A DNA stretch of 64,000 bases. Source: Pedobacter ginsengisoli (lineage in GTDB: Bacteria; Bacteroidota; Bacteroidia; Sphingobacteriales; Sphingobacteriaceae). The position numbers and the translations under genes are program-made. Where the stretch lies: contig NZ_JASSYX010000001.1 in NCBI RefSeq assembly GCF_030244015.1, positions 1 to 64,000 of the forward strand, in the 5' to 3' direction. This document shows positions 61,377-64,000 of the stretch, piece by piece (within the stretch, counting starts at the first letter, position 1; the number at the start of each line of letters is the position of its first letter). The notes below the pieces were generated by a model. That model ran no database searches. It was given only the letters and a program-made list of their open reading frames with translations, and was not told the DNA's origin.

Positions 61377-62342
61377 CTATTTAAACAAGCTGTCAACAAA
61401 AGCTTTTTTATCAAATAACTGAAGGTCATTTACGCCTTCGCCAACCCCAATATATTTTACGGGGATTTTAAACTGATCAGAAATGCCGATCACCACGCCG
61501 CCCTTGGCTGTACCATCGAGTTTAGTAATGGCCAGTGCATTTACGTCTGTCGCTTCTGTAAATTGTTTACACTGCTCAAAAGCATTTTGACCGGTGGAGC
61601 CGTCCAGTACCAGCAGGATTTCATGTGGTGCCCCCGGAACAATTTTTTGCATGACATTCTTTATCTTACCAAGCTCGTTCATTAACCCGACTTTATTGTG
61701 CAAACGGCCGGCAGTATCAATAATTGCTACATCTTCACCGTTTGCTACCGCAGATTGCAGGGTATCATAAGCTACTGAAGCAGGATCTGAACCCATAGCC
61801 TGTGCCACAACACGGACACCTACACGCTCGCCCCAAAGTTTGATCTGATCCACTGCCGCCGCCCTGAACGTATCTGCAGCTCCTAAAACCACCTTTAGAT
61901 TTTCCGCTTTGAGTTTATGTGCCAGTTTGCCAATGGTCGTAGTCTTACCCACCCCGTTTACACCGACAACCATAATCACGTAGGGCTTGTGGTCGCCGCC
62001 GTATTCAAAATTCCTGAAATCATTGCTGTTGTTTTCAGCAAGGAGCAACTGGATCTCATCCCGCAACATGCCATTGAGCTCTGAGGTAGAAAGATATTTA
62101 TCTTTAGCAACCCGGTCCTGAATGCGCGCTATGATTTTTAAAGTCGTGCTTACACCCACATCAGAGGTTACCAAAACCTCTTCCAGGTTGTCCAGCACAT
62201 CATCATCAACAGTGGATTTACCGGCTACGGCTTTGGTGATCTTGCTTAAAAAACCTTCTTTAGTTTTCTCTAATCCCTTATCGAGAGCATCCTGCGCTTC
62301 TGGTGCAGTCTCCTTTTTCTTAAAAAAATCGAATAAACCCAT
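61377..62342 (-). CDS. ftsY: Signal-recognition-particle receptor FtsY
   Basis: SRP receptor GTPase at the inner membrane. 321 residues: the N domain (~20-105) and the G domain with GVNGVGKT at 127-134, DTAGRLHNK and TKLDGTAKGG. The long acidic A domain of E. coli FtsY is absent, as usual in this phylum. An intrinsic terminator separates it from DUF4295 upstream, so it probably has its own start site near 62350-62415. Confidence 0.97.
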   Translation of the reverse strand: MGLFDFFKKKETAPEAQDALDKGLEKTKEGFLSKITKAVAGKSTVDDDVLDNLEEVLVTSDVGVSTTLKIIARIQDRVAKDKYLSTSELNGMLRDEIQLLLAENNSNDFRNFEYGGDHKPYVIMVVGVNGVGKTTTIGKLAHKLKAENLKVVLGAADTFRAAAVDQIKLWGERVGVRVVAQAMGSDPASVAYDTLQSAVANGEDVAIIDTAGRLHNKVGLMNELGKIKNVMQKIVPGAPHEILLVLDGSTGQNAFEQCKQFTEATDVNALAITKLDGTAKGGVVIGISDQFKIPVKYIGVGEGVNDLQLFDKKAFVDSLFK

Positions 62343-62365
62343 ATGAATGTTTTAATAAAATAAAA

Positions 62366-62395
62366 AAAGCCCTCCCAGTATAAAGGGACGGCTTT
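62366..62395 (-). terminator. Terminator after the L28-L33-DUF4295 operon
   Basis: On the minus strand, the stem AAAGCC-x-TCCC / GGGA-x-GGCTTT, with one C-C mismatch and an 8-nt loop, is followed by a run of T. It lies 21 bp after the DUF4295 stop and 24 bp before ftsY. Confidence 0.75.
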
Positions 62396-62411
62396 AATAT
62401 TAGCTAATATT
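62396..62411. promoter_or_regulatory. 16-bp perfect palindrome before ftsY
   Basis: AATATTAGCTAATATT abuts the terminator stem in the DUF4295-ftsY gap. It could extend the terminator hairpin or be a binding site for ftsY expression; the AT-richness makes chance a real possibility. Confidence 0.3.
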
Positions 62412-62415
62412 AATA

Positions 62416-62577
62416 TTATTTTTTAGATGCAACAATAGCATCCTGAACGTGATCGTTGTGAACAATAACTTCTTTAAAAGAATAAGCACCTGTTTTTGGT
62501 GATTTAGTCATTGTGATAACCTTTGAATATTCTTTTCCTTTTCCCGTTTTAAGGGTTGCAACTACCTTTTTTGCCAT
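62416..62577 (-). CDS. DUF4295 small basic protein (ribosomal-operon partner)
   Basis: 53 residues: starts MAKKVVATLKTGKGKEYSKV, contains KSPKTGAYSFKE and ends SKK. It is very basic and found in Bacteroidota directly after rpmG, as here (40 bp downstream). Probably ribosome-associated, by position and charge only. It is too short for many gene finders. Confidence 0.85.
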   Translation of the reverse strand: MAKKVVATLKTGKGKEYSKVITMTKSPKTGAYSFKEVIVHNDHVQDAIVASKK

Positions 62578-62617
62578 GATCTAAATAGATTGTGTTTAGT
62601 TGTTAGTACTAAACGTA

Positions 62618-62800
62618 TTACTTAATTTCTTTATGTACAGTTACTTTCTTCAAAACCGGGTTGAATTTTTTCAACTCTAATCTTTCAGTAGTATTTTTAC
62701 GGTTTTTAGTAGAGATATATCTAGACATACCAGGCATGCCACTGGTTTTATGTTCTGTACACTCTAGAATAACTTGTACCCTGTTACCTTTTTTTGCCAT
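62618..62800 (-). CDS. rpmG: 50S ribosomal protein L33
   Basis: 60 residues: [20 protein letters not shown], then [20 protein letters not shown] and a basic C-terminus. The zinc-binding cysteine pairs of C+ type L33 are absent (only one Cys), so this is the zinc-free form. It lies between rpmB and the DUF4295 gene. Confidence 0.97.
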
Positions 62801-62841
62801 TTTCTTATGATTACGGTTGATTTCACATCAACCAGTGTTTT

Positions 62842-63075
62842 CTACAAATATCCTTTTTTCATGAAGCGGTTGATTGCTTCTGTAATACCAATTTTATTGA
62901 TGGTTTTGATAGCTGAAGTAGATACTTTCAGTGTTATCCAACGATCTTCCTCAGGAATATAAAATTTCTGAAGTTGTAAGTTGGGATAAAACTTACGCTT
63001 AGTTTTAACGTTTGAGTGAGAAACATTAAAACCTGTCATTGCCATTTTTCCGGTTAAATCACAAACTCTAGACAT
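62842..63075 (-). CDS. rpmB: 50S ribosomal protein L28
   Basis: 77 residues: [31 protein letters not shown], and the family end ISTRAIKTI-type segment (here [13 protein letters not shown]). First gene of the rpmB-rpmG-DUF4295 operon with its own promoter upstream. ATG start. Confidence 0.97.
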
Positions 63076-63126
63076 GCCTTATAATATATTGTTAATTGTT
63101 CTTCGCTTAATTTTTTTAAGAGTGTG

Positions 63127-63157
63127 CAAATATCTGTAAAATATTTGTAATCATCAA
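63127..63157 (-). promoter_or_regulatory. Promoter of the rpmB operon
   Basis: On the minus strand, TTG at 63157-63155, a 20-bp spacer, and GATATTTG at 63134-63127 (seven of eight). The predicted start near 63121 gives a leader of about 45 nt. Confidence 0.5.
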
Positions 63158-63239
63158 GTAGGCGAATAAAATATTTTAAATTTATTAAGCAGACCTTATG
63201 GTCTGAACCCGGTGAAGGCGCTGTATTCTAATATCCAGG

Positions 63240-63320
63240 TTCACACATTCTTCACACCTTGTTCACACCAAAGCCACAAACAGGTACCTTTTTGTGAAGA
63301 AAGTGTGACTCAGGTGTGTT
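63240..63320. repeat. Phased TTCACAC repeats forming a large inverted repeat between rpmB and acs
   Basis: TTCACAC occurs at 63240, 63251 and 63262, exactly every 11 bp. Inverted, degenerate copies TTGTGAA, GTGTGAC and GTGTGTT occur at 63292, 63303 and 63314, again every 11 bp. The arms 63241-63256 and 63293-63308 are complementary at 15 of 16 positions. The element lies upstream of both the rpmB and the acs promoter. The rest of 63076-63521 holds those promoters, a 6-bp hairpin (CAGACC-TTAT-GGTCTG at 63190-63205) and the acs leader. Confidence 0.75.
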
Positions 63321-63426
63321 TCATGTGAGGACTTGCCCTTATTCAGGGTGGTAAAAGATCAGGACTGCAATTGGGGCTGACCGCAATAAAGGGCTGGTCA
63401 AAGTATATGATTAGACATTGGATTGA

Positions 63427-63456
63427 TTGAATTTAAAATCAATTTTGCTAAGTTTG
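63427..63456 (+). promoter_or_regulatory. acs promoter (TTG-N19-TAAGTTTG)
   Basis: TTG at 63427-63429, a 19-bp spacer and TAAGTTTG at 63449-63456, an excellent match to the Bacteroidota consensus. The predicted start near 63462 gives a leader of about 60 nt. Confidence 0.75.
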
Positions 63457-63461
63457 GGCTT

Positions 63462-63486
63462 CAGATTTTCAGACCCGGAAAATCTG
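63462..63486 (+). promoter_or_regulatory. Perfect 9-bp hairpin at the 5' end of the acs leader
   Basis: CAGATTTTC, a 7-nt loop, then GAAAATCTG, beginning at or next to the predicted transcription start. It is followed by three ACCTGA copies (63493, 63502, 63513) before the ATG. Could be a 5' stabiliser or a regulator site. Confidence 0.45.
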
Positions 63487-63521
63487 GAACATACCTGATT
63501 AACCTGAATATAACCTGAACA

Positions 63522-64000
63522 ATGCAAATTACCACACTTGAAGATTACAAAACGACCTATCAGTTAAGCGTAGACCAGCCCGAACAATTCTGGGCGGGCA
63601 TAGCAGATAATTTCCTCTGGCGTAAAAAATGGGATAAAGTATTGTCCTGGAATTTTTCAGAGCCTGACATCAAGTGGTTTGAAGGCGCAAAGCTCAACAT
63701 CACGGAAAACTGCCTGGACCGTCACCTGGCAGAGCATGGCGATAAGCCTGCCATTATTTGGGAGCCCAATGATCCGCAAAAAGACAGCATCACTTTAAGT
63801 TATAAAATATTGCATGAGCAGGTTTGCCGCTTTGCCAATGTCCTGAAAAAGAACGGGGTACAAAAAGGTGACAGAATCTGTATCTATATGCCTATGGTAC
63901 CGGAACTGGCTATAGCGGTGCTGGCCTGTGCACGTATTGGTGCAGTACATTCGGTAGTGTTTGGCGGTTTTTCTGCGAAATCTATTGCTGACAGAATTAA
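63522..64000 (+). CDS. acs: Acetyl-CoA synthetase, 5' part (runs off the window)
   Basis: The ATG at 63522 opens a frame that is still open at the window end (159 complete codons). It starts MQITTLEDYKTTYQLSVDQP, then FWAGIADNFLWRKKWDKVL, KWFEGAKLNITENCLDRHL, and the AMP-binding-domain entry VHSVVFGGFSAKSIADRI. This is the acetyl-CoA synthetase N-terminal domain plus the start of the adenylation domain. The enzyme activates acetate to acetyl-CoA with ATP. Partial only because of the window edge. Confidence 0.93.
   Translation, partial: MQITTLEDYKTTYQLSVDQPEQFWAGIADNFLWRKKWDKVLSWNFSEPDIKWFEGAKLNITENCLDRHLAEHGDKPAIIWEPNDPQKDSITLSYKILHEQVCRFANVLKKNGVQKGDRICIYMPMVPELAIAVLACARIGAVHSVVFGGFSAKSIADRI

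Follow-up and report, generated by a model that had tools for sequence, protein, structure and literature searches.

A phased palindromic array in Pedobacter belongs to a dispersed repeat family linked to one clade of DUF6266 genes

Near one end of the 64,000-nucleotide stretch of Pedobacter ginsengisoli DNA analysed here (the window), three TTCACAC units follow one another at intervals of a single helical turn, in the gap between two genes that we take, by eye, to be rpmB and acs; the open reading frames fit this order, with rpmB running leftward and acs rightward. The question that the locus raises is whether such a pattern serves the neighbouring genes or belongs to something of its own. 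A first-pass annotation had described the three units, set at exact 11-bp steps, and an inverted repeat, and had offered a multi-site operator, an architectural element or a repetitive extragenic family as explanations. The units are where it placed them (Table 1), and its 16-nt arms (63241-63256 and 63293-63308) do pair at 15 of 16 positions (94%) around a 36-nt spacer. The inverted repeat is thus real, but its description was incomplete, since the array extends further, and is built more regularly, than had been reported. Read from the sequence, it consists of four 11-bp units on each side of a GGTACC centre, with the innermost units equidistant from that centre and the others following outward in 11-bp steps; the last unit on the right steps 9 bp instead of 11. 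The 16-nt arm is the same dyad in a register shifted by two units. The self-identity of the arm at lag 11 is 0.67 (null 0.25±0.06), with 0.39 for the runner-up among lags 5-17, and the complementarity of the dyad is 0.64 (null 0.26±0.07); for neither measure did any of 20,000 mononucleotide shuffles score as high.

Table 1. Features of the array, its flanking genes and its copies in the same genome. Positions are those of the window unless a contig is given.
Feature	Position	Strand	Details
Flanking gene, taken to be rpmB (77 aa)	62842-63075	-	ORF list
Palindromic array core	63240-63329	+	Four TTCACAC-type units, GGTACC, four GTGTGAA-type units; 11-bp period
Left arm	63240-63279	+	TTCACAC at 63240, 63251 and 63262; GCCACAA at 63273
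Dyad centre GGTACC	63283-63288	.	Array offset 45.5
Right arm	63292-63329	+	TTGTGAA at 63292, GTGTGAC at 63303, GTGTGTT at 63314, ATGTGAG at 63323
Weakly conserved tail, common to some copies	63330-63341	+	The 102-bp repeat of this genome ends approximately here
Flanking gene, taken to be acs	63522-64000, runs off the window	+	ORF list
Six copies of the array in this genome	C1:63240, C1:228478, C1:1168156, C2:508695, C2:568246, C3:434579		BLAST, this genome

A genome-wide BLAST search returned six copies of about 100 bp, the five others being 91-99% identical to the one in the window, and the flanks of the six are unrelated. The pattern TTCACAC-N4-TTCACAC has exactly 10 matches in the 4.83-Mb genome: five of the copies hold two each, and the sixth copy departs from it by one change. 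Across the genus, the array family was found in 22 of 145 genomes by BLAST and in 27 of 144 with a profile built from 59 copies (the profile, DUF6266 and clade searches covered 144 genomes each, which are assumed to be one sample); the named public contigs carrying the pattern are two, from Pedobacter psychroterrae and Pedobacter sp. ok626. With six copies in this genome and others throughout the genus, the repetitive extragenic family is the one of the three earlier options that holds. At none of 86 loci does a chosen ORF cross the array. Independent sites, 54 in number, were obtained from these loci by removing 28 duplicate or orthologous sites by hand and dropping 4 further loci where a gene was not found on both sides; the flanking genes are divergent at 21 of them, co-directional at 26 and convergent at 7. 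The right-hand gene points away from the array at 33 of the 54 sites and the left-hand gene at 35, so that the array shows no preferred direction with respect to the genes around it. Around 106 copies, GC skew gave no sign of an orientation by replication strand (48 positive), and the exact pattern of centre plus right arm was not found in viral contigs.

We then consider what is conserved among the copies, leaving aside 4 of the 106, in which the centre is altered, from the conservation, identity and spacer-covariation analyses. In the other 102, conservation is 0.973 in the centre (array columns 43-51), ~0.96 in the CACA columns of the left arm and ~0.965 in the TGTG columns of the right arm; unit columns reach 0.886 as compared to 0.694 for spacers. 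This difference between units and spacers is as expected for contacts made once per helical turn, and makes it plausible that the array acts as DNA rather than as a leader RNA, which had been proposed before. Many other species have an extra left unit, TTCACAA, some 19 bp further out. Copies are more alike within genomes (mean identity 0.879) than between them (0.784; 102 copies, 20 genomes), a difference of 0.096, whereas 2000 label permutations never gave more than 0.020. Even copies at orthologous sites in different species are usually less alike than copies inside one genome; this does not hold for G022/G023, which are very close to each other, nor for pairs within G054/G072.

Some individual copies deserve mention. 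The array at L332 (G032:C1:1937925-1938046) is a nearly perfect palindrome, spacers included, and there are copies whose arms find their best pairing one or two units out of register, which would fit a repair of one arm from the other. In G044 (L161) and G069 (L326), an array lies between the same two genes, presumably thyA and ispE as judged by eye, in opposite orientation; a DUF6266 gene is found there only in G069. A family of small genes (86-99 aa, HKRPSGTKAE-like) recurs beside arrays in G128, G037 and G012 (L091, L093, L095, L099, L102, L115, L120, L144 and L337); the one member that was scanned has no Pfam match.

One of the six copies in the P. ginsengisoli genome, at C1:228478-228583, lies upstream of a gene (C1:227701-228336) whose product is a DUF6266 protein (PF19781; 116.6 bits against a curated cut-off of 23.4), whereas none of the other five copies, the rpmB-acs one among them, adjoins such a gene. 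DUF6266 is also the commonest family among 104 flanking proteins, with 8 members; in the genus as a whole it occurs in 104 of 144 genomes. A search with the linked protein delineates a clade of 15 genes with 47-100% identity from 14 genomes, one linked gene per genome with two in one genome; the remaining matches listed have at most 42% identity, apart from one partial match in this genome (46% over 137 residues). The clade genes are monophyletic with a support of 1.0, and the one from G012 carries a stop codon. This clade is present in 14 of the 27 array-positive genomes and in none of the 117 array-negative ones (Fisher p 2e-12). The array is found upstream of 14 of the 15 genes and on the same strand, at a distance of 52-225 bp in 12 cases and of 861 and 866 bp in two, where a small gene lies between; the 15th gene is at a contig end, and the fetched locus stops at its start. 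Taken generally, a linked copy shares the strand of its DUF6266 gene and mostly precedes it by 50-310 bp. The TTCACAC array type is thus tied to one clade of DUF6266 proteins. Strong arrays also occur in five genomes without a clade gene (G032, G044, G051, G054 and G072), and since those of G032 and G044 are very uniform (0.92 and 0.96), uniformity does not at present depend on the gene.

Other DUF6266 genes adjoin arrays of other units. Diverged arrays with a TTCGC unit are found beside DUF6266 in another genus (G207, G303, G362 and G364). For an independent set of 68 DUF6266 genes chosen regardless of arrays, we defined a strong period as a lag-11 identity of at least 0.55 over 55 bp, a threshold that was set before the output and reused for further genes. 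Such a period is present upstream of 8 of the 68 genes and downstream of none, as compared to 1 of 111 control upstreams, from which those with TTCACA or TGTGAA had been left out, a choice that slightly favours an association of arrays with DUF6266. Other lags reach 0.55 in 0 to 4 of the 68 upstreams (4 at lags 21 and 22). The remaining 60 upstreams lack a strong 11-bp period. Among 24 further DUF6266 genes, mostly from other genera (28 rows minus two genes printed twice and two from this genome that had been used before), 10 have the period upstream and none downstream, the strongest being 0.91 (L399, unit CTAACTATATG). Some of these periods are close to the threshold and could have arisen by chance.

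The units upstream of these other DUF6266 genes include TTACC, AACAGGG, TTCGGGAA, CTAGGAGAA, AGGTGT and others. Ten upstream arrays representing eight types were searched in 20 genomes, with overlapping rows merged by eye into places, and five of the eight types proved to be dispersed in the genome they come from. Seven genomes have 4 to 13 places each of the TTACC type, G007 has five of the CTAGGAGAA type, G037 four of the AACAGGG type, G101 three of the L202 type and G074 two of the L219 type. At the sensitivity used, the L217, L197 and L234 types were each found at a single place in the genome of origin. The TTACC array precedes eight DUF6266 genes in seven genomes, on the same strand and at 277-449 bp. 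Each of the gene sets beside TTCACAC arrays (14), TTCGC arrays (4) and TTACC arrays (3) forms a clade in a tree of 78 proteins, with a support of at least 0.998; the three genes labelled TTCGG form no clade. Two further array types of this genome may be recorded here. The first, with a unit like TTCTGCGCAGC, occurs at C2:118982-119022 (L279) and C3:382977-383019 (L288), with no DUF6266 gene seen alongside either copy, and is related to the type present in the rpmB-acs gap of G025 and G105; the other is a tandem AGGTGT-type array with an 11-bp period at C4:415808-415927 (L234), just upstream of a DUF6266 gene.

The DUF6266 protein itself offers few clues. In the model of the linked protein (mean pLDDT 86.6), the C-terminal part folds like fibronectin III (residues 111-212, best Z 11.5). 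The N-terminal half, modelled alone with a mean pLDDT of 82.8, has no match among solved structures and no Foldseek match with an E under 6, which does not prove that its predicted fold is new; among predicted viral structures, the best match is to an uncharacterised protein (E 2.8e-5, TM 0.55 by query). No recognised nuclease, transposase or DNA-binding fold was found in DUF6266, and this lack of an enzymatic or DNA-binding mark is the main weakness of any model in which the protein acts in trans. For three DUF6266 proteins, PADLOC gave no match and PHROGs one weak match (E 0.061) of unknown function. The Pfam entry PF19781 gives no function and describes no repeat partner, and our literature searches found no description of the arrays or of DUF6266. 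An origin from phage or plasmids was considered and set aside: two single-protein queries of viral contigs gave no confirmed relative, the one phage record is weak (29.6% identity over 71% of the query), and a single-protein query found no relative in plasmids. In this genome, DUF6266 is amplified, with at least 20 genes listed and 37 first-look candidates, often in tandem (for example G000:C1:157300-160900 and L227-L235); other Pedobacter genomes likewise reach at least 20 listed genes.

Linkage, dispersal, the change of unit with gene clade and the similarity of copies within genomes are all observed. We suggest that the array between rpmB and acs is a solo copy of a dispersed repeat whose types are each paired with a DUF6266 clade, the pair copying or converting arrays within the genome, a reading that we think has about an even chance of being correct. 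Each array type, with a fixed GGTACC-like centre and short units set outward from it to left and right, one per helical turn, would be paired with its own DUF6266 clade; the units would be read as duplex DNA, with one protein contact per turn outward from the centre. We infer that DUF6266 or a partner binds or copies the arrays: the reading protein could be DUF6266 itself or a partner, and the gene-array pair would keep copying or converting arrays within the genome, as is thought for RAYTs and REPINs. Weighing against this model are the five array-bearing genomes without a clade gene, the three array types with a single place, the 60 of 68 DUF6266 upstreams that have no strong period, and the lack of any target duplication or movement among the copies examined. 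More specifically, DUF6266 might be the trans-acting half of a gene-repeat partnership independent of RAYT/REPIN, with each clade reading its own unit and driving its copying or conversion; this stronger version we hold as a tentative possibility.

The likeness to REPINs is considerable. According to PMC3116915, each REPIN type adjoins its own RAYT, and RAYTs are single-copy. Here too we find dispersed extragenic palindromes, with six copies in this genome and no chosen ORF crossing the array at 86 loci, and a distinct linked gene for each repeat type, with DUF6266 in place of the RAYT; in both systems gene and repeat co-diversify. They differ in that the gene linked here is DUF6266 and not a Y1 transposase, that the repeat consists of 11-bp-phased units arrayed over 90-120 bp about a single centre, and that there are fewer than 20 arrays per genome. 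REPIN/RAYT is the main known case of dispersed bacterial palindromes that come with a partner gene of their own, and here the gene belongs to another protein family, one amplified in Pedobacter. If the partnership with DUF6266 is real, it would provide a first testable function for this family; unit sequence and protein clade would co-diversify, yielding a natural series of protein-DNA recognition pairs, and the many clade-unit pairs could be used for studying recognition and within-genome sequence populations.

It could also be argued that the array serves DUF6266 genes as their operator or promoter and that these genes relocate and are lost often, so that solo arrays are footprints and nothing spreads in trans. 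This would fit the constant upstream position and strand at 14 of the 15 clade genes, as well as the sites that have array and gene in some species and the array alone in others: the rpmB-acs gap holds the array followed by a DUF6266 gene in G029 (L145) and the array alone in P. ginsengisoli, and the site next to rmlD varies likewise (G022, G023 and G000 versus G012, G036, G099 and G128). However, solo arrays outnumber clade genes severalfold (G069 has 16 fetched arrays and one clade gene), and footprints alone do not account for the similarity of solo copies within a genome; we thus consider this account unlikely, though worth serious attention.

Alternatively, the arrays might be non-autonomous, MITE-like elements moved by some transposase, with DUF6266 as a passenger or preferred neighbour. 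Like MITEs and ERIC-like palindromes, they are short (those elements being ~100-130 bp), palindromic, intergenic and of low to moderate copy number, and they are dispersed and near-identical within genomes; PD-(D/E)XK nuclease family transposase genes (PF12784) do flank two arrays on their right (L093:2261-3133 and L337:2373-3005), in the genomes G037 and G128. Unlike such elements, however, they have 11-bp periodic units and a linked gene outside the known transposases. Among 65 copies, no significant direct repeat indicative of a target-site duplication was seen in the flanks, a weak test as the exact ends are uncertain; no transposase family recurs among the 104 flanking proteins, and no movement of an array was seen. 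As for a full-length transposon sharing the ends of the array, a BLAST query of 241 bp, which covers nearby ends, matched only the six arrays in this genome. As a passenger status would also leave the clade-specific unit sequences unexplained, we regard this explanation as improbable.

An operator for acs or rpmB, of the Crp-like kind or of the tandem 11-bp kind used by PhoB/OmpR response regulators, is a further candidate, and TCACA half-sites are indeed present. In Pho boxes and other OmpR-family operators, each 11-bp step is made up of a 7-bp unit and a 4-bp spacer, and the array has this layout, with tandem direct repeats at lag 11 (identity 0.67); it differs from them in its inverted halves around a centre, its dispersal and the turnover of units between genomes. 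A Crp operator, TGTGA-N6-TCACA upstream of a promoter, has its halves facing inward, an arrangement not found in the array, where TCACA is in the left arm and TGTGA in the right, in tandem; moreover, related arrays keep period and symmetry with TTCGC, TTCTGCGC or TTACC as the unit, and the earlier suggestion of Crp half-sites is therefore not supported. A resemblance of the units to the DnaA-box consensus was dropped, as related arrays lose it.

The rpmB-acs gene order is conserved, but TTCACAC is present in none of the 26 scorable gaps of other Pedobacter (29 loci were fetched, and in 3 acs was not within the locus); the array also stands at five other, unrelated sites, 7 of the 54 independent sites are between converging genes, the sites overall being divided among divergent, co-directional and convergent pairs as given above, and units change wholesale between related genomes. 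The multi-site operator for acs and rpmB thus falls by the first-pass annotation's own reasoning, which had taken many scattered copies with no link to promoters as the mark of a repeat family and absence from close relatives with the same gene order as an argument for chance, and we judge any such operator very unlikely. A promoter scan gave a match at 63412-63439, near the acs promoter predicted earlier, among 4 matches in total as compared to 4.4 in shuffles. The rpmB-acs site is common to some species, with array type and adjoining gene varying: G025 and G105 hold an array of another type there, with the unit TTCTGCGCACC. Most likely, then, the copy in the window is not dedicated to the control of acs, and phased TTCACAC sites in these genomes should not be annotated as acs regulation. 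In the same gap of G072 (L168), at about the same distance from rpmB, a degenerate array with TTCGA-type units and a AAAAAGTGCATTTTTT centre can be made out by eye; it is not significant in the dyad scan.

A structured RNA or a chance pattern is hardly credible. The arms are partly complementary, almost perfectly so at L332, but the copies and shuffles exclude chance, and a structured RNA is argued against by the lack of an Rfam match on the array (cmscan of 62000-64000 gave two matches, both below the gathering score and neither on the array) and by a consensus fold of 14 pairs with a covariation term near zero. Covariation between the spacers of the two arms is weak (0.572 at shift 1 with a null maximum of 0.555, 0.532 at shift 2 with 0.542, none at shift 0), and we do not count it as support.

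The arrays do share with REPIN/RAYT elements that they are palindromic, extragenic and dispersed and that each type is linked to one type of gene. That they are genuine members of that system has next to no probability and is already contradicted, since the defining Y1 transposase (Y1_Tnp, PF01797) was found in none of the 12 array-positive Pedobacter genomes tested, this genome included; the array-DUF6266 pattern resembles that system and is not a member of it. PF01797 is present in all three genomes of genus g32 and in four of the five other Pedobacter genomes that were searched.
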